The notes under the pieces were generated by a model that did not search any database, was not told the DNA's origin, and worked only from the letters and a program-made list of their open reading frames with translations. 64,000 nt of DNA from Roseospira goensis (lineage in GTDB: Bacteria; Pseudomonadota; Alphaproteobacteria; Rhodospirillales; Rhodospirillaceae): NCBI RefSeq assembly GCF_014197795.1, contig NZ_JACIGI010000002.1, positions 1-64,000 of the forward strand. Direction: 5' to 3'. The first letter of the stretch is position 1. The number at the start of each line of letters is the position of its first letter. Of this stretch, positions 1,223-45,641 are shown piece by piece. The position numbers and the translations under genes were made by a program.

Positions 1223-2179
1223 TCAGCTCGATGTGGACAGCCGCGACCAGGCGGCCTTGTAGTGGGTGATGTCGGGGGTCTCGGCGCCGGCACCGGTGGC
1301 CAGCATCGCCGCCACGCGCATGGTCTTGACCATGCCGCGCAGGGCGCCGGGTTTGGCGGCGACCCGCGCCAGGAAATCCCGGCTGTCCTTGGCCTCAATC
1401 CCCCACGCATCCAGAAGGGCTGTGGCGTCGCCAGCCCGGGGCTTGGCCTGGACCATCCGCATCCCGACGCGACTGAAGAGCTGGGCGAACTCGGCCGCGC
1501 GGCCCTGGCCTTCCAGGCGCGTGTAGACCGTTTCATTTCCGAGCAGCACGAGACCGCATCCGGTCCTGTCATGGATGGACCGCAGCGCATCCAGCGCGTT
1601 CGGCTGCAGGTGTTGGGCCTCGTCGATGATCAGCAGGCCATTCTTGCCGGCCACGTAGGACGAGATCGCGCGCGCATACCCCTGCGGGGACCGTTCGGTG
1701 AGCCCAAGGGCAATGGCGATCTCGCCCAGCGCGGTCGAGACCACGCGCGTCGTCGGGTCCATGGTCGCCAGCCAGGCGTTCGGGGTGGCCTCGGCGTACC
1801 GGCGAGCCGTGGTGGTCTTGCCGCAGCCCGCGCCCATGGCCACGACCGCGATATCCGGCGCGATGTGCGCATACTGGATCGTCTGCAAAATCGCGGCGGC
1901 GCTCTCCGTCTGGACCCACCCGATGTCGCGCGGCAGCACGGCCGAGGCGGTGCGGCGCTCCTCGCGCGCCGCCAGCCAGCGCTCGACCTTGGCCGCCATC
2001 TTGGCGTTGTCGCCTTGGTAGGCGTTGGAAAGCCACGCCGAAAAGCTGCTGTAGCCGATGTCCGCTTCGGTCGCGGCGGTTTTCTGGCTGATCGCTTCGT
2101 TGGCCAGGAGCGCCTTGACGCGCTCGCGCAGGGCTTCCTGCACGTCCGTCTCGTGTTGCATGATGTCGCCGTCCCTCAT
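1223..2179 (-). CDS. MuB-type transposition target-selection ATPase
   Basis: In transposable phages, B is an AAA+ ATPase that coats target DNA and delivers it to the transposase, and also gives target immunity. Residues about 15-60 form a helix-turn-helix-like N-terminal domain (around SQKTAATEADIGYSSF), as in MuB. Walker A is GAGCGKT at about 116-122 and Walker B is LLIIDEA at about 182-188. The length of 318 aa matches the family (about 310). It lies directly downstream of transposase A with 61 bp between. The start at 2179 is chosen as the first ATG; MQHETDV seven codons in is an alternative. Confidence 0.9.
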   Translation of the reverse strand: MRDGDIMQHETDVQEALRERVKALLANEAISQKTAATEADIGYSSFSAWLSNAYQGDNAKMAAKVERWLAAREERRTASAVLPRDIGWVQTESAAAILQTIQYAHIAPDIAVVAMGAGCGKTTTARRYAEATPNAWLATMDPTTRVVSTALGEIAIALGLTERSPQGYARAISSYVAGKNGLLIIDEAQHLQPNALDALRSIHDRTGCGLVLLGNETVYTRLEGQGRAAEFAQLFSRVGMRMVQAKPRAGDATALLDAWGIEAKDSRDFLARVAAKPGALRGMVKTMRVAAMLATGAGAETPDITHYKAAWSRLSTSS

Positions 2180-2240: not shown

Positions 2241-4220
2241 TCACTCGTTCTGTGCCCGCCAGTCGGCGAGCGCAGTCACCCCCGCCGCGAAGGCGCGGTC
2301 GAAGTCCGCGCCCGTCGCCGCCTGGGTGTCCTCGTCCGCCGGGGCGGGCGCCGCCCGCGCGACGGTGTTTCCGATGATCCTGATGACCTTGGCGTCCGGG
2401 TCCGGCGTCTCGTCCGGCGCTGGCAGCGCCGCCGCCACCTGGGCGGCCGTCATGCGCTTCTCGGCCTCGGCCATCTCCTTGACCGCCCGCCTGAACCGAC
2501 CTTCATCGGCCTTTTGCCGCTTGACCGCTTCGGTGTCCGCATACCCGCTGTCATCGCGGCACTCGGCCTCGCAGACGGCCGTGCCGTCCAGCAGCGAGAC
2601 ATGAACGGGCTGGTGCAGGGCCTCGGGATCGAACCGCGCGATCACCTTCCGCCCGACCAGCCGGGCCAGCTCGGGCGCCCAGTACCGGTTGCCGAACAGT
2701 TCGATCCGACCGTCAGGCACCCGGCAGGTGACGCCCTCGGCGGCCAGCAGCCACAGGCGGCGCATCTCCGGCGAGGCTCGGCGGATGATGGTGTCCTCGG
2801 CCTCGTAGCTGGCCTGGAACGTCTCGTCGAAGCTCCGCCCCCGGCAGGCCGCCGCCTTGCGCCCGGGCCGCGCGTTGTGATGACGGATTTCCCGGTCCAC
2901 GATGGCGATGAACTGGTCGATGGGCACGGCACGCTGGCCGTAGGTGTGCGGCTTGTGCTCGGGGCTCCGCCCGGTGTAGGCGCCGCTGCAGTCCGGCCCC
3001 TTGGCCACGTACTCCGCCATGTCGCGGAACGCCCGCTCGATCGGCTTCGACTGCCCGTGATAGGGCTCGGTGAAGTGCACCTCGCAGCCGCATTGCCGGA
3101 ACAGCCCGACCGGATCGTCATCCCGCACCTTCCAGCGGAAGCGGTTCGGGGTGCCCCCGGTCAGCCACTTGCTTGACGCGGCGCGCGTGTTGTCCAGCCA
3201 GACGTGCTCGGGCAGGCCGTAGTCCTCGACCAGGTCCCCGAAGGCCAGCCGGAAGGCGGTCGCGTTCTCGCTGCGGTCGATCCGCCAGCTCAGCACCTTG
3301 CCCGAGAACAGATCCTGGAAGGTGACCATCATGGGCCGGGAGACGGTGCCGTCCGCCCATTCCACGAACACGTCAAAACGGTGGCCGTCGAAGTTCACGG
3401 CCTCCAGGGCCTTGAAGGCACTGCGGTCGCGGCGCTGGGCCGGGAACCGGCGCATCAGCGCCTCCCGCCCCTCGCGGAACCAGCACACCAGCAGCGGATC
3501 CAGGTCCGCCAGCCGGCGTTGAAGGGTGCGGGTGCTGGGCAGGGACCAGCCGCGGGCGGCGGCGACCCGGCGCAGGCGCTCGATACAGGCATCCACCGCC
3601 GGCTTCTCGGCCCGCAGGTAGTCCGCCTTCAGCATCGCCCACGCCTCGGGCTCCAGATCCGTCGTCGTCACCCGCCCGGACCGCTGGTCCACCAACATGG
3701 GCAGGCGGTGCTCACGCGGCGTGTTCCAGGTGCGCTTCTCAAAATTGAAGTAGCTGCGCGCGCTGATCCCCGCCGGCGCCGCCACCAGTTCGACGGCGGC
3801 CGTCTTGCTCATGCCGCCGCGCACCAGGGTCTCGACCTGATCGATCAGCGCCAGACGCTGGCGGGCCGTCTCCCGGCGGCTCTCGGGCAGGGCCTCGAAG
3901 CGCGCCCACATCTCGCGCCACTTCGGATCATCGTTCGCGGCCTCCGGCGCTTCGGCGGCGGCTGCCGGTGTTCCCTGGCGCCGCAGGAACGCCGCGCGCG
4001 CCCGGGCCGGCAGAGCGCTGATGTGGTACTCCACACCGCCGCCCTTGCCGCGCCGCCGCCGCCACACGCCGGACGAGCGTCCCTCCGACCACTGGCGATC
4101 GGGGGATTGCCACTCCTTGCGCGCCCGCCGCACCACGGCCTCGCGGGTCTTGGGCAGCCCGGGCAAGGACAGTTCGGCGATCTCGGCGGCGGTCAGCCAA
4201 TGTTCGGTCGCCGTCGTCAT
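2241..4220 (-). CDS. MuA-type DDE transposase
   Basis: This enzyme would cut and join phage ends during lysogenisation and replicative transposition. The N-terminal 80 residues (HWLTAAEIAEL, then REAVVRRARKEW) match the Mu-type winged-helix enhancer-binding domain. The integrase core has the acidic triad in VNFDGHRFD (D278), WLDNTR (D343) and SKPIERAFRD (E395), close to the Mu A positions D269/D336/E392. A beta-barrel Mu-transposase C domain follows to about residue 560, and a charged tail may contact the B protein. At 659 aa it has the usual length (Mu A is 663). The start overlaps the previous gene's stop by four bases. Confidence 0.95.
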   Translation of the reverse strand: MTTATEHWLTAAEIAELSLPGLPKTREAVVRRARKEWQSPDRQWSEGRSSGVWRRRRGKGGGVEYHISALPARARAAFLRRQGTPAAAAEAPEAANDDPKWREMWARFEALPESRRETARQRLALIDQVETLVRGGMSKTAAVELVAAPAGISARSYFNFEKRTWNTPREHRLPMLVDQRSGRVTTTDLEPEAWAMLKADYLRAEKPAVDACIERLRRVAAARGWSLPSTRTLQRRLADLDPLLVCWFREGREALMRRFPAQRRDRSAFKALEAVNFDGHRFDVFVEWADGTVSRPMMVTFQDLFSGKVLSWRIDRSENATAFRLAFGDLVEDYGLPEHVWLDNTRAASSKWLTGGTPNRFRWKVRDDDPVGLFRQCGCEVHFTEPYHGQSKPIERAFRDMAEYVAKGPDCSGAYTGRSPEHKPHTYGQRAVPIDQFIAIVDREIRHHNARPGRKAAACRGRSFDETFQASYEAEDTIIRRASPEMRRLWLLAAEGVTCRVPDGRIELFGNRYWAPELARLVGRKVIARFDPEALHQPVHVSLLDGTAVCEAECRDDSGYADTEAVKRQKADEGRFRRAVKEMAEAEKRMTAAQVAAALPAPDETPDPDAKVIRIIGNTVARAAPAPADEDTQAATGADFDRAFAAGVTALADWRAQNE

Positions 4221-4696
4221 CGGCCGGCCCTCCGCGCCATGCGCCGCGCCAGCTCATACGCACGGTCCACCTCGGCCTTGACATCCGCCAGTTGCCCCAC
4301 CTCGATCCACGGCTTGAAGTGCTGATCGACGCAATCCCGGCCCACCTCTTCGGCGCCGAGCTGCATGAGGCGCGCGTCACCGGTGACCTTGCACAGCGCG
4401 ATCTGCCGGTGCGCGGGGATCGTGTGGCCCTCGCTGCCCTGGCTGGCGTATTTGTCCAGCATATCCTTGCTGACCCTCTCACCCAGGTATGTGCTCATCG
4501 CCTGGGCGATCTCTTCGCGGGGCCGTCCGCACTCCTTCAGGGTCGCCGACACCGCCAGCGCGATCCGATCTCGCAGGTTCGCCGCCTGTGTCGTCGCCGG
4601 CGCGAACCGTTCCACCGGGTCGCGCGGCTGCCAGTCCGCCAGCAGGTCGAGCGTGTGGTGGTCGGCGGGATCCCGGCCCGAGCGGCGGCGGCCCAT
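4217..4696 (-). CDS. Conserved Mu-like prophage early protein (159 aa)
   Basis: The ATG at 4696 is preferred over one at 4738 because GGAGGGCTGAGGCC precedes it at good ribosome-site distance. The protein has a central segment (LLADWQPRDPVERF) followed by a helical region with TYLGERVSKDMLDKYASQ, then HRQIALCKVTGDARL. This pattern is typical of a protein family found directly upstream of transposase A in many alphaproteobacterial transposable phages. Part of it looks like a helix-turn-helix, so DNA binding is possible, but its biochemical role is not known to me. Its stop overlaps the start of A. Confidence 0.75.
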   Translation of the reverse strand: MGRRRSGRDPADHHTLDLLADWQPRDPVERFAPATTQAANLRDRIALAVSATLKECGRPREEIAQAMSTYLGERVSKDMLDKYASQGSEGHTIPAHRQIALCKVTGDARLMQLGAEEVGRDCVDQHFKPWIEVGQLADVKAEVDRAYELARRMARRAGR

Positions 4697-4700
4697 GGCC

Positions 4701-4928
4701 TCAGCCCTCCGCCGGGCCGGCGCCGAGGCGCTGTACAAAGACGCGGGCCGGTGCCGCAGGAACGGTGACGTCGCTCACCCATTGGCGAGCCATGGTCAGC
4801 CCCTGGCCATCGGGCTCCGACCCGACCTGCACATGAAGCCCGTCCGGCGTGGACAGGAGGGGCAGGCTCACGATTGAGCCGTCGCTGAAATTGACGATCA
4901 GGGACGGGCCGTCGGCATTAGGCCGCAT
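4701..4928 (-). CDS. Small prophage early protein (75 aa), unknown function
   Basis: The frame from ATG 4928 overlaps the end of the ParB-like gene by 11 bases and ends four bases before the next gene's start. The product is mostly beta (LIVNFSDGSIVSLPLLS, then RVFVQRLG), without signal peptide or membrane segment. An upstream ATG at 4949 would add seven residues but lies deeper inside the preceding gene. No family is recognised. The operon position supports expression. Confidence 0.6.
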   Translation of the reverse strand: MRPNADGPSLIVNFSDGSIVSLPLLSTPDGLHVQVGSEPDGQGLTMARQWVSDVTVPAAPARVFVQRLGAGPAEG

Positions 4929-5871
4929 CGTCGCCTCCCGCGTCCGCATCGGCCCGCAGGGCCTTTTCCGCCTTGACGCCGATCTGCGTTTTCAGCGCGC
5001 CGATCTGCGCGAGATGGGCGACGAAGTCCCGCTGGGCGCGCTTGTCGGCGCGGCTCCACGCCGACATCAGCTTCTGAAGCCCGCCGTCGTCCGGCGCGTC
5101 CTGCGGCCCCTCGCCCTTGCGCGCCCGCAGCGCCGCGCCCAGGTCGGGCCGGTCATCCGGCCCGGCGCCATCCAGCAGGCCCTCGACCACGGCGATCTGT
5201 TCGGCATGAGGCAGCTTCGACAGGGCGTACAGCTCGCCCTCGCGCCAGTGCGCCCACCGCTGCATGCGGCGACGGACGTCCGGCGCCAATCCGCCGGCCA
5301 CCTGTACGGCACGGAAAATGGTGCGTTCGCTCAAACCGATGCGTTCGCGGACCTCGCGCGCGAAACCGATGGCCGGGCCACCGTCTGCAACTGCAATTTT
5401 TGCAGTTGCATCATTTTTGTGCAGCTTGGCGGCGGCGCCGGCCGCACCCTGAACGGCCTCCGGGTGCAGGGCTTCATAGACGGCCTTGCGCTCGGCCAGG
5501 AACACTGCCCGGTCCAGAGGCTCCAGGCCGCGCCGGCACAGGTTCTCGTCGATCTCCACCAGGCGCGCCTGCAGATTGTCCATCTCGACGACGACGACCG
5601 GGATGTCGCTCCATCCCAGGATCTCGGTCATGGCATGGTGCCGGTGCGCCCCGGCGACCAGGGTGAAGCCGCTCGTGTCCGGCCGCACCACCGGCGGCTC
5701 GACAAGGCCCTGTTGCCGGATGCTCTCGGCCAGGGTCGCGGCCCACGCCTCGTCGATCACCCGCAGCCGGTCGGTCACCCGAATGCTGGTGCGGGGCACC
5801 ACCCGCCGCTCGCCCTGCCACGCGCCGGCCGGTGCTGCGGCCTCTGGCGCGGCCTCCTTGCGCGGCGCCAT
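4918..5871 (-). CDS. ParB/Spo0J-like nuclease-domain protein of the prophage
   Basis: Residues about 25-110 form a ParB N-terminal domain, with the family boxes ESIRQQGLVEPPVVRP and AGAHRHHAM. A helical segment that resembles the ParB helix-turn-helix region follows (FAREVRERIGLSERTIFRAVQ), and then a coiled, charged C-terminus. Many transposable phages of Alphaproteobacteria carry such a gene in the early operon, where it probably acts as a DNA-binding regulator rather than in partitioning, since no parA is present. The start at 5871 overlaps the stop codon of the upstream gene. Confidence 0.8.
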   Translation of the reverse strand: MAPRKEAAPEAAAPAGAWQGERRVVPRTSIRVTDRLRVIDEAWAATLAESIRQQGLVEPPVVRPDTSGFTLVAGAHRHHAMTEILGWSDIPVVVVEMDNLQARLVEIDENLCRRGLEPLDRAVFLAERKAVYEALHPEAVQGAAGAAAKLHKNDATAKIAVADGGPAIGFAREVRERIGLSERTIFRAVQVAGGLAPDVRRRMQRWAHWREGELYALSKLPHAEQIAVVEGLLDGAGPDDRPDLGAALRARKGEGPQDAPDDGGLQKLMSAWSRADKRAQRDFVAHLAQIGALKTQIGVKAEKALRADADAGGDDAA

Positions 5872-6536
5872 TACGCCCGCCCTCCGGCCAGACCGCGCGC
5901 CCCATCCAGGCGCTGCCAGAACCTCCAAATGGCCGTGCGGCTGGGTGTCCGCGCCGCGCCGAACCGCTCCAGGCATTCCGCACGCGCGCGGTTGATGGTC
6001 GTCTGGCGGTGCTTCTCGATCAGGAACGCCCGCACCTCCCGGTCGTGCCAGAAGCGCGGTCGTGTCCCGTCCGACCAGATCGGCAGATAGGTGACGCGAT
6101 CCTCCAGCCGGCTGTCGTCCATGCCCAACGCGCGTTCGACTGCGTCCAGCCGGGCGCACATCGCGGCCCAGGGGTCCGGGACTTGGGGCGGCGGCGGTGG
6201 AGCCATGCCCCGCCGCCACGCCATGAAGACCGTGATCACCTCCTCGCGGACGTCGGCGGCCCGGTCGGTGCGGGCGAACATGCACAGCAGCAGCGCCTGC
6301 CCCTCGTTGAGGAAATACTCGTCGATTTCGTGGGTGCCGCCGTTCCAACGGAGTTGCGCCCCACGGTGGGGCGCAAGGTCTCCGTACCGGTGAAACTCCG
6401 ACAGGTTCCGCTGGATCAACTCCCGGATTTTGCGTGGACGCCGAAACCCGAGCCGTTCCGCCAGCCGCAAATCATGGATGCGCGGCTCGTTTTCCATCAC
6501 GGACAGGTCGTCCGCACTCAAAACCTGGCTGCCCAT
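5871..6536 (-). CDS. Rha/KilA-N-like phage regulatory protein (221 aa)
   Basis: Residues about 15-105 carry a domain typical of phage antirepressor-like regulators (NEPRIHDLRLAERLGFRRP, then YFLNEGQALLLCMFARTD, ending at VITVFMAWRRG). The C-terminal half contains a second region (HDREVRAFLIEKHRQTT, then ARTPSRTAIWRFWQRL) that looks like a DNA-binding helix-turn-helix. The island protein at 35533-35895 is a clear homologue of the N-terminal domain. The start at 6536 has GAGAGGGCAG upstream. The coding sequence contains a perfect 11-1-11 inverted repeat at 6354-6376. A regulatory role is inferred from the family. Confidence 0.75.
   Translation of the reverse strand: MGSQVLSADDLSVMENEPRIHDLRLAERLGFRRPRKIRELIQRNLSEFHRYGDLAPHRGAQLRWNGGTHEIDEYFLNEGQALLLCMFARTDRAADVREEVITVFMAWRRGMAPPPPPQVPDPWAAMCARLDAVERALGMDDSRLEDRVTYLPIWSDGTRPRFWHDREVRAFLIEKHRQTTINRARAECLERFGAARTPSRTAIWRFWQRLDGARGLAGGRA
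6354..6376. repeat. Perfect 11-1-11 palindrome inside the Rha-like gene
   Basis: TTGCGCCCCAC, one G, then GTGGGGCGCAA. On the coding strand it encodes LAPHRGAQ. A homologous palindrome with two exactly paired base changes lies at 35716-35738 in the island gene. It may be a binding site for the encoded protein or a structured mRNA element. Confidence 0.8.
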
Positions 6537-6537
6537 G

Positions 6538-6834
6538 TCAAGCTGCCCTCTCGTTTTTGACTGCACGTCGCGTGCGTTCGTCTGTAGTGTGGTCCTTGCG
6601 GCGTCGGTCGATCCGCGTGCCGTCGGGCAACCAGCGGTCCGGCCACAGCTCGTGGAGGGGCACGCCCAGAAACGCGGCGATGGCCCGCTCGGCGGACTGG
6701 CTTTTGAGGACCAACGCGTTGCGGCAGGCCGGCTCCGCAAGGCCGGCGTTGATCGAGATGGCGCCCAGGGTTGACCCCCGGCGCTTCACCTCGGCCGCGA
6801 TCCGATAGCGATCCCAGGGCTCGCTCGACGTCAT
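6538..6834 (-). CDS. ner: Ner-like helix-turn-helix regulator, first early gene
   Basis: Ner proteins are small lambda-Cro-like repressors that turn down early transcription and the c repressor gene in Mu. This 98-residue product begins MTSSEPWDRYRIAAEVKRRG, followed by TLGAISINAGLAEPACRNAL and an AIAAFLGVPLHELWPDRW segment, the hallmark of the Ner/Nlp family. The start at 6834 has GGAGGAGAGC directly before it. It is the first gene of the leftward early operon and is divergent from the repressor gene, with two palindromic operators between them. The basic C-terminal tail (RIDRRRKDH) is usual in the family. Confidence 0.88.
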   Translation of the reverse strand: MTSSEPWDRYRIAAEVKRRGSTLGAISINAGLAEPACRNALVLKSQSAERAIAAFLGVPLHELWPDRWLPDGTRIDRRRKDHTTDERTRRAVKNERAA

Positions 6835-6852: not shown

Positions 6853-6872
6853 CACCGGGTGGCTACCCGGTG
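6853..6872. promoter_or_regulatory. Palindromic operator next to ner (8-4-8)
   Basis: CACCGGGT, GGCT, ACCCGGTG is a perfect inverted repeat 18 bp upstream of the ner start. Being different in sequence from the second palindrome at 6901, it probably serves a different regulator. Which protein binds which site is not shown by the sequence. Confidence 0.6.
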
Positions 6873-6900
6873 TCAAAAACCTACCTTCGAAATGACAGTA

Positions 6901-6916
6901 CCCCAGTATTCTGGGG
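6901..6916. promoter_or_regulatory. Palindromic operator next to the c repressor (6-4-6)
   Basis: CCCCAG, TATT, CTGGGG is a perfect inverted repeat in the divergent ner/c intergenic region, 26 bp before the proposed repressor start at 6943. Its AT-rich centre in otherwise GC-rich DNA fits a repressor operator overlapping a promoter. Confidence 0.6.
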
Positions 6917-6942
6917 TCGATCAAGCAAAAAGCTGGAATCTT

Positions 6943-7674
6943 ATGCCAAAGCCCACTGCCAAATCCGAAAAACCTCGCGCCAAACCATGCCAAGAAATTG
7001 CTGGGCGCGTGCGGACTTTGGCGGATCGCTTTCCAAATAGAGCAGCCGCCGCCGAAAAAGCTGGTATATCGGTATCGACCCTACAAAACTGGATCGACGG
7101 CAAATACGCGCCATCGTTCGAGTCCATCGCGCATTTGGCGCAAGCGGCGGGTATTCGGGTCGAGTGGATCGCGACTGGTCGGGGGCCAATGGAAGCCGAC
7201 GTTTCGTCCGCCAGGCAGCAGCAAGCCATGGGGGCGGCGCCGCCCCCAGCCGTCGCGCCGCTCAATGCCGATGAGGACCTGGACGCCCTCGAATCGCGTC
7301 TAGATACCGCCGATGCCGAGCAGCTCGAACAGGCCCGGAGAGACCTGCTCGCTATCGCCGGCAACGACCGGCTGTCGCCCGCCACGCGGGCGCGGGCCGA
7401 TATGCTGCTGGACGTTCGGTTCGGGGACGAGGCGGCCGCGCAAAGGCGGGCGGCGGTCGAGCGCGTCGTCTCCGATGATATCCGCGACCTCGGGCGCCGC
7501 CTTCAGGCGTCGGAGAGAGAGGCCGCCTGGCGGCCGCCGCCCCTCGTGCGCGCCATGCTCAAGGAATTGCTTTACAGCCACCCCGGCATCGGTGACGACG
7601 AGATCACTTCGCTCCTGCGCGCCATGAAGGCCGAACTGGTTCCCGAACCGCGAGACCCCGCTCAGGGGCCTTAG
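6943..7674 (+). CDS. c-type prophage repressor, N-terminal HTH
   Basis: It should maintain lysogeny by repressing the early operon. The N-terminus contains a helix-turn-helix (AAAEKAGISVSTLQNWIDGK, then IAHLAQAAGIRVEWIATGRG), as in CI-like and Mu-like c repressors. A Gln/Ala/Pro linker follows, and then a charged helical C-terminal region without an obvious peptidase dyad. The start at 6943 is chosen because the frame could also open at 6859, but that would place the 6901 palindrome inside the gene; no start has a strong ribosome site. It is divergent from ner. The product is 243 aa. Confidence 0.8.
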   Translation: MPKPTAKSEKPRAKPCQEIAGRVRTLADRFPNRAAAAEKAGISVSTLQNWIDGKYAPSFESIAHLAQAAGIRVEWIATGRGPMEADVSSARQQQAMGAAPPPAVAPLNADEDLDALESRLDTADAEQLEQARRDLLAIAGNDRLSPATRARADMLLDVRFGDEAAAQRRAAVERVVSDDIRDLGRRLQASEREAAWRPPPLVRAMLKELLYSHPGIGDDEITSLLRAMKAELVPEPRDPAQGP

Positions 7675-24432: not shown

Positions 24433-24508
24433 GTCCCCTTCGTCTAGAGGCCTAGGACACCGCCCTCTCACGGCGGCAACAGGGGTTCGAATCCCCTAGG
24501 GGACGCCA
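24433..24508 (+). tRNA. tRNA-Glu (anticodon CTC)
   Basis: The 76-nt sequence folds as a cloverleaf. GTCCCCT and AGGGGAC close the acceptor stem, CCGCC-CTCTCAC-GGCGG carries anticodon CTC, and AGGGG-TTCGAAT-CCCCT is the T arm. The CCA end is encoded. Its last 47 bases are the attachment site of the following island, which recreated the 3' end of the gene on integration, so the tRNA stays intact. Confidence 0.97.
24462..24508 (+). repeat. attL: 47-bp tRNA-Glu 3' end
   Basis: Identical over 47 bp to 37680-37726; identity stops at the next base on both sides. It spans the anticodon loop to CCA of tRNA-Glu, a common crossover segment for tyrosine integrases. Confidence 0.93.
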
Positions 24509-35532: not shown

Positions 35533-35895
35533 TCAAAGGTCGCGTTTCGCGACGTTAGGATTACCCCGGTGTTTCCCCGGGGAAATACGGTGACGTGCCG
35601 GACCTAACCCGTCATTTCGACGGGTTTGCCGTCCCGCCTGGGTGATGATGAAGAGGGCCTGCTTGCGGTTCAGGTAGTAGGCGTCAACGAAGTGAGTGGC
35701 ACCGTTTGACCGGAGTTGCGCCACACGGTGTGGCGCAAGGTATCCCAGGCTGGACAGGTGGGAGATATAACGCTCGATGATCTGGCGGATCGCACGGGGC
35801 CGCTCATACCCCAGCTTGACCGCAAGGTCGGTGTCCAGGATGCGGGGTTCGCCATTGATGGGGGTGATGGTCAACGCAGTGGCTTGGTCGTTCAT
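35533..35895 (-). CDS. Short Rha/KilA-N-like protein (120 aa), homologue of the prophage gene
   Basis: Residues 14-85 align throughout with the prophage protein at 5871-6536: NGEPRILDTDLAVKLGYERP against ENEPRIHDLRLAERLGFRRP, LAPHRVAQLRSNG against LAPHRGAQLRWNG, and YYLNRKQALFI against YFLNEGQALLL. The homologue's C-terminal half is missing and the last 35 residues are basic and unrelated, so this is either a minimal form or a truncated gene. It probably binds DNA or other regulators. AGGAAACCGG precedes the ATG at 35895. The coding sequence carries a palindrome at 35716-35738. Confidence 0.65.
   Translation of the reverse strand: MNDQATALTITPINGEPRILDTDLAVKLGYERPRAIRQIIERYISHLSSLGYLAPHRVAQLRSNGATHFVDAYYLNRKQALFIITQAGRQTRRNDGLGPARHRISPGKHRGNPNVAKRDL
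35539..35626. repeat. Cluster of three perfect inverted repeats at the 3' end of the Rha-like gene
   Basis: GTCGCG-TTT-CGCGAC (35539-35553), TTTCCCCGGGGAAA (35572-35585) and AACCCGTC-ATTTC-GACGGGTT (35606-35626) follow each other within 90 bp. Their density is unusual for coding DNA. Confidence 0.7.
35716..35738. repeat. Perfect 11-1-11 palindrome inside the island Rha-like gene
   Basis: TTGCGCCACAC, one G, GTGTGGCGCAA. It matches the prophage palindrome at 6354-6376 except for one base in each arm, and the two changes pair with each other. Confidence 0.8.
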
Positions 35896-43645: not shown

Positions 43646-44112
43646 TGCGCCAGGCATGGCGCGTAGCGCCGTGACTGGCGCCGCCGGGACCGCTGTGGTG
43701 GCGGTTCGGGCGACTTGGGGGTGGAAGTCCCCTGCGGACCCTGGTGACGGGAACCGCTAGCCGAACAGCAAGGGCGTCGCCGCGAGGCGGGGTCTGAAGG
43801 AAGCTGTAAGCAAAGTCCTGGCCCGACGAACAGGAACCGCATACGAGGCGCCGAGACCCTGGGCGAGGGGGCCAGAAGACCCGAAGCCCGATGTCACCCG
43901 GAGGGTCTGGGCGTAGATGCGGCGGGTATGTGGGACGAAGGTCGCGCGTCTTACCCTGGGAGGCCTGCCGTTCCGCCCCTGATTTCAGGTGTGCACCCGG
44001 CGCCGAGAGGCGTCGGCATGGGGCGGCAGGAGTCAGCAGAGGCCATAGGAGCCGGTTTGACCAGCCGGCAAAGGGCCGAACATGAAGACCCGGAACGGAG
44101 CCCCGGACCTCG
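43646..44112 (+). ncRNA. Group II intron 5' ribozyme part (domains I-IV)
   Basis: No gene is credible here. The sequence shows many nested stems and AAGGAAGCTGTAAGC- and GAACAGCAAGGGCG-like segments usual in domain I of bacterial group II introns. Domain-level folding was not computed. Confidence 0.6.
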
Positions 44113-45519
44113 ATGACCCCTGAAGACACAGCAACGCGGGCCGGGATGCCCGCCTCCCACCCGGAGGGTAGCGGCCGGAAGCCGCGAGAGCATGGGCCGG
44201 GTGTGTCGGGGGTTGCGGCGGCCCGGGGGGGCTCCCGACCGGACGCGGAGTCCGGGCTGATGGACGCGGTTGTCAGCCGGGAGAACATGTGGGCGGCCTA
44301 CCGGAGGGTGGTCTCCAACAAGGGCGCGGCGGGCGTGGATGGCATGACCGTCGCGGACCTGGGAGAGCACCTGAAGGCCCATTGGCCGGCCCTCAAGGAA
44401 GACCTGCTGGCCGGCCGCTACCAGCCGGCGGCGGTGCGCAAGGTGGAGATCCCGAAGCCGAACGGCGGCGGGATGCGCCTCCTGGGCATCCCGACGGTGG
44501 TCGACCGGCTGATCCAGCAGGCGCTGCATCAGGTGCTGATGCCGCTGTTCGATCCGGAGTTCTCGGAGTCGTCGTTCGGGTTCCGGCCCGGGCGGAGCGC
44601 CCATCAGGCCCTTGTGGCGGCCCGTGGCCATGTGGCGGCGGGCCGGCGCTGGGTGGTGGACATGGACCTGGAGAAGTTCTTTGACCGGGTGAACCATGAC
44701 GTGCTGATGGCACGGGTGGCGCGCAAGGTCACTGACACGCGGGTTCTGGCCCTGATCGGCCGATACCTGCGGGCCGGATTGATGGACGGCGGGGTGGTCT
44801 CGCAGCGGACGGAGGGCACGCCCCAGGGTGGCCCGCTGTCGCCGCTGCTGTCGAACATCCTGCTGGACGAGCTGGACACGGAGTTGGAGCGGCGCGGCCA
44901 CGCCTTCGTCCGCTATGCCGACGACTGCAACATCTATGTGCGGTCGCGGGCGGCGGGCGAACGGGTGCTGGTCTCGCTGACCCGGTTCCTGTCCCGGCGG
45001 CTGAGGCTGACGGTCAACGCGGCGAAGAGCGCCGTGGACCGTCCGTGGAAGCGGACCTTCCTGGGCTACACCATGACCCATCACCACGCCCCGCGCCTCA
45101 AAGTGGCGGGGGCGTCGGTGAAACGGCTCAAGGCCGCGCTCAGGGACGTATTCCGGCAAGGCCGGGGGCGGTCCATCGGCCGGCTCATCGACGAGCTGAC
45201 CCCGAAACTGCGCGGCTGGATGGCCTACTTCCGGCTGGCGCAGGTGAAGGGCATTTTCGAGGAGCTGGACCAGTGGCTGCGCCGAAAACTGCGCGTCGTG
45301 CTCTGGCGCCAGTGGAAACGGCCACGCACCCGCGCCCACAAACTGATGCAACGCGGACTGGCACCCGACCGGGCATGGCAATCGGCCATGAACGGGCGTG
45401 GCCCCTGGTGGAACGCCGGGGCCCGCCACATGAACCAGGCGGTGCCGACGTCCGACTTCCGCTCTTTCGGCCTGATCCCGCTCATCGACCACTGGCACCG
45501 TTTCCAGCGGTCTCCATGA
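44113..45519 (+). CDS. ltrA: Group II intron reverse transcriptase/maturase
   Basis: The protein helps the intron fold and copies it into DNA at new sites. RT motifs are visible: GAAGVDGMTVADLGEHL, VRKVEIPKPNGGGMRLLGIP, SESSFGFRPGRSAHQAL, VVDMDLEKFFDRVNHDVLM, TPQGGPLSPLLSNILLDELD and the catalytic FVRYADDCNIYV (YADD). The maturase X domain follows (LRGWMAYFRLAQVKGIFEEL). No HNH endonuclease domain is present, as expected for class C. At 468 aa the frame is intact, so the element may be active. Confidence 0.95.
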   Translation: MTPEDTATRAGMPASHPEGSGRKPREHGPGVSGVAAARGGSRPDAESGLMDAVVSRENMWAAYRRVVSNKGAAGVDGMTVADLGEHLKAHWPALKEDLLAGRYQPAAVRKVEIPKPNGGGMRLLGIPTVVDRLIQQALHQVLMPLFDPEFSESSFGFRPGRSAHQALVAARGHVAAGRRWVVDMDLEKFFDRVNHDVLMARVARKVTDTRVLALIGRYLRAGLMDGGVVSQRTEGTPQGGPLSPLLSNILLDELDTELERRGHAFVRYADDCNIYVRSRAAGERVLVSLTRFLSRRLRLTVNAAKSAVDRPWKRTFLGYTMTHHHAPRLKVAGASVKRLKAALRDVFRQGRGRSIGRLIDELTPKLRGWMAYFRLAQVKGIFEELDQWLRRKLRVVLWRQWKRPRTRAHKLMQRGLAPDRAWQSAMNGRGPWWNAGARHMNQAVPTSDFRSFGLIPLIDHWHRFQRSP

Positions 45520-45641
45520 ACCGCCGTGTACGGAACCGTACGCACGGTGGTGTGGGAGGAGGGGAACCGAGAGGCCCCCTCCTACCCGATCCGATGCCCC
45601 ATCCCCGCGCCGCCATGACATGACATGAAAGGATCCCGCGC

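Follow-up and report, generated by a model that had tools for sequence, protein, structure and literature searches.

A palindrome within the codons of a winged-helix phage regulator is a probable operator of the encoded protein and has counterparts in Rha and Bro-N genes

A regulator gene of a Mu-like prophage in the window (the whole stretch of 64,000 nucleotides analysed here) carries a perfect palindrome within the codons of its winged-helix DNA-binding domain. This palindrome is very probably the operator of the encoded protein, which a homodimer of the regulator would read inside its own gene. Its position, an excess of symmetry over what codon usage predicts, the covariation of its half-sites with the helix encoded upstream and the outcome of a prediction test together make this the most likely explanation. 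A palindrome of varying sequence is present at the same place, the first wing strand, in many genes of the window family (alphaproteobacterial relatives of the window protein, gathered by protein search and from viral and genome contigs) and of the Rha (PF09669) and Bro-N (PF02498) families. Many genes of this phage-regulator family thus appear to carry their own symmetric binding site within the codons of the DNA-binding domain, with gene and site travelling and changing together; many homologues are without a clear palindrome.

The regulator gene and the palindromes of the window

The features relevant to the argument are the following:

1223..2179, minus strand: MuB-like ATPase gene (Pfam and PHROG matches)
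2241..4220, minus strand: MuA-like transposase gene (Pfam and PHROG matches)
4217..4738, minus strand: transcriptional regulator gene (phrog_2345)
4918..5868, minus strand: ParB-like gene, downstream of the regulator gene (PF02195; phrog_3264)
5871..6536, minus strand: Rha/Bro-N-like winged-helix regulator gene of the Mu-like prophage, 221 amino acids (phrog_2657, E 8e-4)
6318..6368, minus strand: codons 57-73, wing hairpin with strands 57-62 and 68-73 (AF2 model; covariation)
6354..6376, no strand: palindrome 1, 11-1-11, in codons 54-61 of the Rha-like gene and putative operator for that gene's product (covariation)
6408..6437, minus strand: codons 34-43, second HTH helix, the putative recognition helix (28-37 in model numbering; covariation)
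6538..6834, minus strand: Ner-like repressor gene, directly upstream of the regulator gene (HTH_35, E 2e-20; phrog_769)
6859..7674, plus strand: CI-like repressor gene, divergent, start codon uncertain (PF07022, PF01381)
35533..35895, minus strand: homologue in the second region, 120 amino acids, binding domain kept (protein search, L158)
35716..35738, no strand: palindrome 2, with two mutually opposite bases changed relative to palindrome 1 (sequence)

Pfam searches at 1e-3 recovered no family for either window protein, and the cut-offs of Phage_pRha and Bro-N were not reached. All ten relatives that were scanned matched Rha or Bro-N at E<=0.1, only L038 lying over the curated cut-off, and all ten matched anti-repressor or regulator PHROGs (PHROG 63, 518 and 2657 being the closest known groups). 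Judged from these matches, the window proteins are a distant branch of Phage_pRha and Bro-N, and not members. A sequence search for relatives with a solved structure returned none that was credible. The AF2 model of residues 7-116 of the window protein (mean pLDDT 88.8) displays an HTH followed by a two-strand wing, with the second HTH helix at residues 34-43 and the wing strands at 57-62 and 68-73; the first wing strand is for the most part encoded by the palindrome, which lies in codons 54-61. The AlphaFold model of one Rha protein (mean pLDDT 90.5) also contains an HTH and a two-strand wing, and from the first HTH helix onward the order of elements (HTH, two-stranded wing, helices) is identical in the two models.

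Palindrome 1, TTGCGCCCCAC-G-GTGGGGCGCAA, is centred 171 bp inside the prophage regulator gene and reads on the coding strand CTT GCG CCC CAC CGT GGG GCG CAA (LAPHRGAQ). Palindrome 2, TTGCGCCACAC-G-GTGTGGCGCAA, reads CTT GCG CCA CAC CGT GTG GCG CAA (LAPHRVAQ) and belongs to a short copy of the regulator, in which, by eye, the likeness to relatives stops soon after the wing. The initial annotation had described perfect 11-1-11 inverted repeats at the same codons of these two homologous genes, with two differing bases placed exactly opposite each other such that the palindrome is preserved, and the window sequence bears out both points. It had also held one of the two changes to be silent and its partner to alter the protein; this is correct, as the codons read on the coding strand give a silent CCC to CCA and a GGG to GTG that replaces Gly by Val. 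With up to three mismatches allowed, the palindrome pattern has two matches in the window and none in 100 shuffles, and in the genome from which the window comes (4.18 Mb, 81 contigs, 98.6% complete) it occurs at three places only, all in homologous genes. The third of these, a 9-5-9 repeat, occupies the equivalent codons in another homologue, which lies on contig C56.

Two more inverted repeats (6853-6872 and 6900-6917), differing from the intragenic palindrome, lie within or close to the stretch separating the Ner-like gene from the CI-like gene and are plausible candidates for early-promoter operators. Elsewhere in the window there are a tRNA-Glu gene at 24433-24508 and, at 43776-45590 on the plus strand, Rfam matches to pieces of a group II intron (RF02001, RF01998, RF00029).

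Distribution of the palindrome across three families

A relative of the window protein is present in 10 of the 74 genomes of the taxonomic family and in 22 of the 318 of the order, the own genome included. A search of 249 genomes by Pfam accession gave Phage_pRha in 46 and Bro-N in 54, and the best 30 loci of each were used; to these were added, from viral contigs, the best 80 of 353 Rha loci (73 distinct) and the best 80 of 110 Bro-N loci (71 distinct). The best inverted repeat of each gene yielded dozens of distinct arm sequences, with the centre in all three codon phases, and similar half-sites such as TTGCGCCCCAC, TTTGCGCCAC and CTCGCGCCAC translate as LAPHRGAQ, VCATVAQT and LAPRWRKS respectively. 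Long examples have 15 bases per side (L010), 17 (L055) or 19 with one mismatch (L053).

Repeats with a score of at least 10 are found at the wing place in 46 of 121 window-family, 31 of 103 Rha and 40 of 101 Bro-N genes, and elsewhere in the domain in only 5, 2 and 12 genes, the wing place making up 8%, 17% and 6% of the codons searched. At a score of at least 8 the wing place is filled in 83/121, 57/103 and 61/101 genes, leaving 38, 46 and 40 without such a repeat; the anchor itself could not be located in 3, 2 and 24. When the protein was held fixed and the codons were redrawn from sequences of similar G+C, the repeats scoring at least 10 that were expected numbered 3.1 against 48 observed in the window family (n=121), 0.1 against 10 in Rha (n=30) and 0.15 against 7 in Bro-N (n=30). 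Symmetry in the collected homologues hence exceeds the expectation from codon usage, the comparison that the initial annotation had proposed. As a background, other ORF starts in the same viral loci had a repeat of at least 10 in 22 of 531 cases on the forward strand (at least one family member, L357, among them) and in 46 of 637 on the reverse strand (antisense frames of family genes included). Seven of 11 named genes lack a repeat of at least 7, including the rha genes of phi80 and P22, both of which match Phage_pRha; among these seven, one Paenibacillus phage gene was cut, and ICP1 gp87.1, which has no Pfam match, may lie outside the family. Palindromic insertion elements, such as the rickettsial palindromic elements, are insertions that are either present or absent and lengthen the protein; here wing lengths, compared by eye, are similar, though not identical, in genes with and without the palindrome.

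Several individual loci depart from the common pattern or have neighbors of note. L055 possesses a second palindrome within its gene, as does L101, seemingly (by eye), and in L123, L125 and L126 the best palindrome (of the ATAGCGCGCCAC.g.GTGGCGCGCTAT type) is situated at least about 10 codons upstream of the usual place, in helix codons. The Rha gene at 1453-2091 of L230 adjoins ICP1 CRISPR-Cas genes and contains a 7-2-7 palindrome, AACGCAA.tt.TTGCGTT, at the wing place, which agrees with the prediction of the Rha table (see below) for an A-D-R helix. In L038, a C4 antisense RNA (1301-1386; RF01695, 70 bits) is encoded shortly upstream of a Bro-N antirepressor gene with a wing palindrome.

An operator elsewhere near the gene was considered and rejected on counts of matching places in the flanks, set against a reversed-pattern control. 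Flanks of 70 viral Rha loci contained 2 other places at up to one mismatch (control 0) and 17 at up to two (control 6); those of 77 Bro-N loci contained 2 at up to two (control 0) and 3 at up to three (control 9); and those of 107 window-family loci contained 12 at up to two (control 0), some of which are the own site found again on the other strand, and 18 at up to three (control 9). Thus, the intragenic site is the sole clear one near most of these genes. L048 does have genuine sites beyond the intragenic one: at 1327-1386, outside the regulator gene, there are two adjacent perfect palindromes with different types of half-site (GATCATCGCCCCAC... and GGGTTTTCGCCAC...), resembling an operator array, the second of which (GGGTTTTCGCCAC...) is similar to the neighboring regulator's own site.

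Correspondence between helix residues and half-site bases

In all three families the half-site follows residues of the preceding helix, which is encoded about 15-25 codons upstream. For Rha this was evaluated in the 92 of 103 genes with the NF anchor, using the variable residues 1, 2 and 5 of the segment 'H12VL5' and counting both half-sites. Residue 1 corresponds to base -6 (K with G in 128/130, R with G in 6/6, D with C in 25/30), residue 2 to base -4 (N with T in 137/142, D with G in 21/22, H with C in 10/10) and residue 5 to base -3 (R with C in 132/138, Q with G in 28/30, E with G in 5/6). When mutual information was computed over all columns of the Rha alignment (n=91), the same three residues ranked highest outside the palindrome, with a wing residue that couples to base -8 next in rank. 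For Bro-N (77 of 101 genes) the top residues are 35, 38, 39, 42 and 43 (numbered by the first row), in the corresponding segment 'NPxxA', over a higher background of up to 0.5 bit as against 1.3 at the top.

In the window family, where a repeat could be placed in 107 of 139 genes, residues 31, 33, 35, 36, 39 and 40, all in the second HTH helix or just before it, are coupled to bases -7 to -2; for bases -9 and -10 the coupled residues are 69-71, in the second wing strand. The AF2 model puts the residues coupled to the half-site at the second HTH helix and the wing. Arg35 accompanies G at -7 in 114 of 116 half-sites. Residues 36/39 correspond, in more than one codon phase, to the bases at -5 to -3: K/E with CCC in 17 of 20 half-sites (from 10 genes, the window's own included), A/Q with CAC in 10 of 10 (from five genes: the second copy in the window, the one on C56, and three foreign genes whose codon phase differs) and D/K with GCC in 38 of 42. 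The pairs N/K with TCC (6/12 half-sites) and K/D with CCC (11/18) are less uniform. Permuting half-sites within codon phase and wing residue 70 reached the observed association in none of 2000 trials for residues 31, 35, 36 and 39. Common descent of one stretch of sequence may be all that links the wing residues to the outer bases. The prophage protein has K/E at residues 36/39, where the second homologue has A/Q; given the preference of K/E for CCC and of A/Q for CAC, the C/G to A/T pair exchanged between the two palindromes is therefore what the code leads one to expect, and the change from Gly to Val is its price in the wing. The palindrome is, by covariation, a symmetric site whose bases depend on the recognition residues of the regulator that the gene encodes, one feature of an autogenous operator.

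The correspondence was also evaluated by prediction. A Rha table learned on viral genes gave the right base at 101 of 114 positions in the genome set (22 sites), shuffled pairings averaging 43% with a maximum of 62% in 2000; the positions had been picked with both sets already in view. For the window family the rule was fixed beforehand and applied to 17 homologues outside the training rows (plasmid and phage matches, and contigs). Four of these have no repeat, and for 11 of the other 13 the rule makes a call, with 61 of 70 bases right (shuffled pairings: mean 54%, maximum 77% in 5000). Two scored genes, L460 and L466, are on contigs already in the earlier set, and leaving them out gives 47 of 54 (shuffled mean 53%, maximum 81%). 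The rule did poorly on L489, with N/Q at 36/39, where 2 of 8 bases were right. On a tree of 91 Rha proteins, built from short sequences with helix and palindrome columns removed, the two-state traits change 10-12 times each, and the residue agrees with its base in 84/84 genes for residue 5, 79/80 for residue 1 and 79/79 for residue 2, other residues and bases being left out. Independent pairs on strongly supported branches number only 2, 2 and 1; across 200 random pairings, they agree every time for residues 5 and 2, and for residue 1 most of the time.

These observations bear on several other explanations. The ParB-like gene adjoining the regulator gene in the window raises the possibility that another protein (the ParB-like neighbor, CI/Ner or a host factor) binds the site in place of the gene's own product. 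This is very unlikely, given that the half-site bases covary with the regulator's own helix in three families and that the dinD gene of E. coli K-12, chromosomal and among host genes, has such a site too. The initial annotation had read the symmetry as a sign of selection on DNA or RNA structure, giving an autoregulatory site and an mRNA switch as examples. A hairpin acting as a switch of translation or decay would suit the long and often perfect arms around short loops, but is less probable still. Raw counts of arm mismatches on the coding strand of 149 distinct repeats give 15 G.T against 35 A.C and 31 others, whereas RNA pairing would favor G.U; moreover, RNA could not form the innermost pairs of a repeat whose centre is a single base, Rfam searches of the window and of 12 loci gave no family at the site, and the half-sites follow the helix residues of the protein. 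The suggestion of an mRNA switch is hence unsupported, and that of an autoregulatory site is supported by the symmetry above codon usage and by half-sites that covary with the protein's own helix residues, the two-base change included. Of the least probable explanations, template switching at quasi-palindromes, which would keep the arms alike without any function, might account for the perfect long arms of many sequences and for the second palindrome in some genes (L055), but leaves both the correlation with upstream helix codons and the fixed place across families unexplained. Coevolution of helix and wing at the protein level, with the palindrome as a by-product, is equally improbable: helix and wing residues do covary in Rha (Arg with Glu and Gln with Gln after NF), but comparable half-sites are translated in three codon phases into dissimilar wing residues, and where Leu precedes NF its codon tracks the helix through a synonymous change, 54 of 55 genes with a helix Arg having CTC and all 14 with Gln having CTG (Fisher p 1e-13).

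Possible function and comparison with known systems

The proposed mechanism is binding of the palindrome by a homodimer of the encoded winged-helix protein. Residues 31-40 of the window protein, in the second HTH helix or immediately ahead of it, would read the inner half-site, and the outermost bases, which go with residues 69-71 of the second wing strand, are perhaps read by the wing. The bound dimer could act as a roadblock or exert negative feedback about 170 bp inside the gene, either of which would, in the Mu-like prophage, reduce transcription of the ParB-like, MuA-like and MuB-like genes downstream as well; of the effects that such binding might have, feedback on this early operon is the likeliest. 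Because the site overlaps the wing codons, regulator and operator would be inherited together and exchanged together, and the protein sequence there might be altered to keep the DNA symmetric. Given that the site is almost identical in three genes of a single genome, elements may also recognize one another. It is also conceivable, if on balance somewhat doubtful, that Rha/Bro-N-type regulators are generally 'self-addressed', the binding domain and its operator forming one stretch of DNA that is exchanged as a cassette and defines a specificity (immunity-like) group, such that a resident copy can recognize and silence any incoming copy of its own kind.

The large phage antirepressor families thereby gain candidate DNA-binding sites and a first residue-to-base code, which can be tested at once. 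If the proposal holds, the coding sequence of a regulator doubles as its operator, and one set of codons displays the constraints on both protein and DNA; this would offer a simple reason why such domains can be shuffled between phages and still work, and would point to a possible self-recognition system between related phages.

The dinD gene of E. coli K-12 MG1655, which scores over the Bro-N cut-off, resembles the window gene in having a palindrome at the wing place, in dinD with arms of 15 bases that mismatch once; unlike the window gene, it is a chromosomal gene. Over codons 11-82 the K-12 and BL21-type (strain BLR) alleles share only 117 of 216 bases, and on either side they agree at 29 of 30 and 566 of 579, a pattern consistent with a cassette exchange in which binding domain and site moved together. 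Pfam assigns the BL21-type allele to Bro-N as well; this allele has outer arms only and no clear inner palindrome, and therefore counts against a universal rule.

The Phage_pRha (PF09669) and Bro-N (PF02498) antirepressor domains form the N-terminal winged helix of phage regulators, as in the window protein. Autogenous operators inside coding sequence are exemplified by E. coli PurR, a regulator that binds within its own gene. In comparison to operators of this type, the site described here overlaps the wing codons, recurs across families and changes together with the helix. Among the titles and opening parts of abstracts listed by searches of the open-licence literature, none names an intragenic operator in the Rha/Bro-N family, and the portions consulted of PMC6145125, PMC8263062 and PMC4936722, the last of which describes a Rha phenotype, mention neither an operator inside the gene nor targets of these antirepressors. 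Domain shuffling in or near these families is supported by parts of PMC6145125 and PMC8263062. According to the sections of PMC8263062 consulted, ICP1 Odn and PLE RepA_N exemplify the exchange of a DNA-binding domain and its cognate site between replicons; in that system the site consists of origin iterons in noncoding DNA, whereas here it lies within the codons of the binding domain itself.
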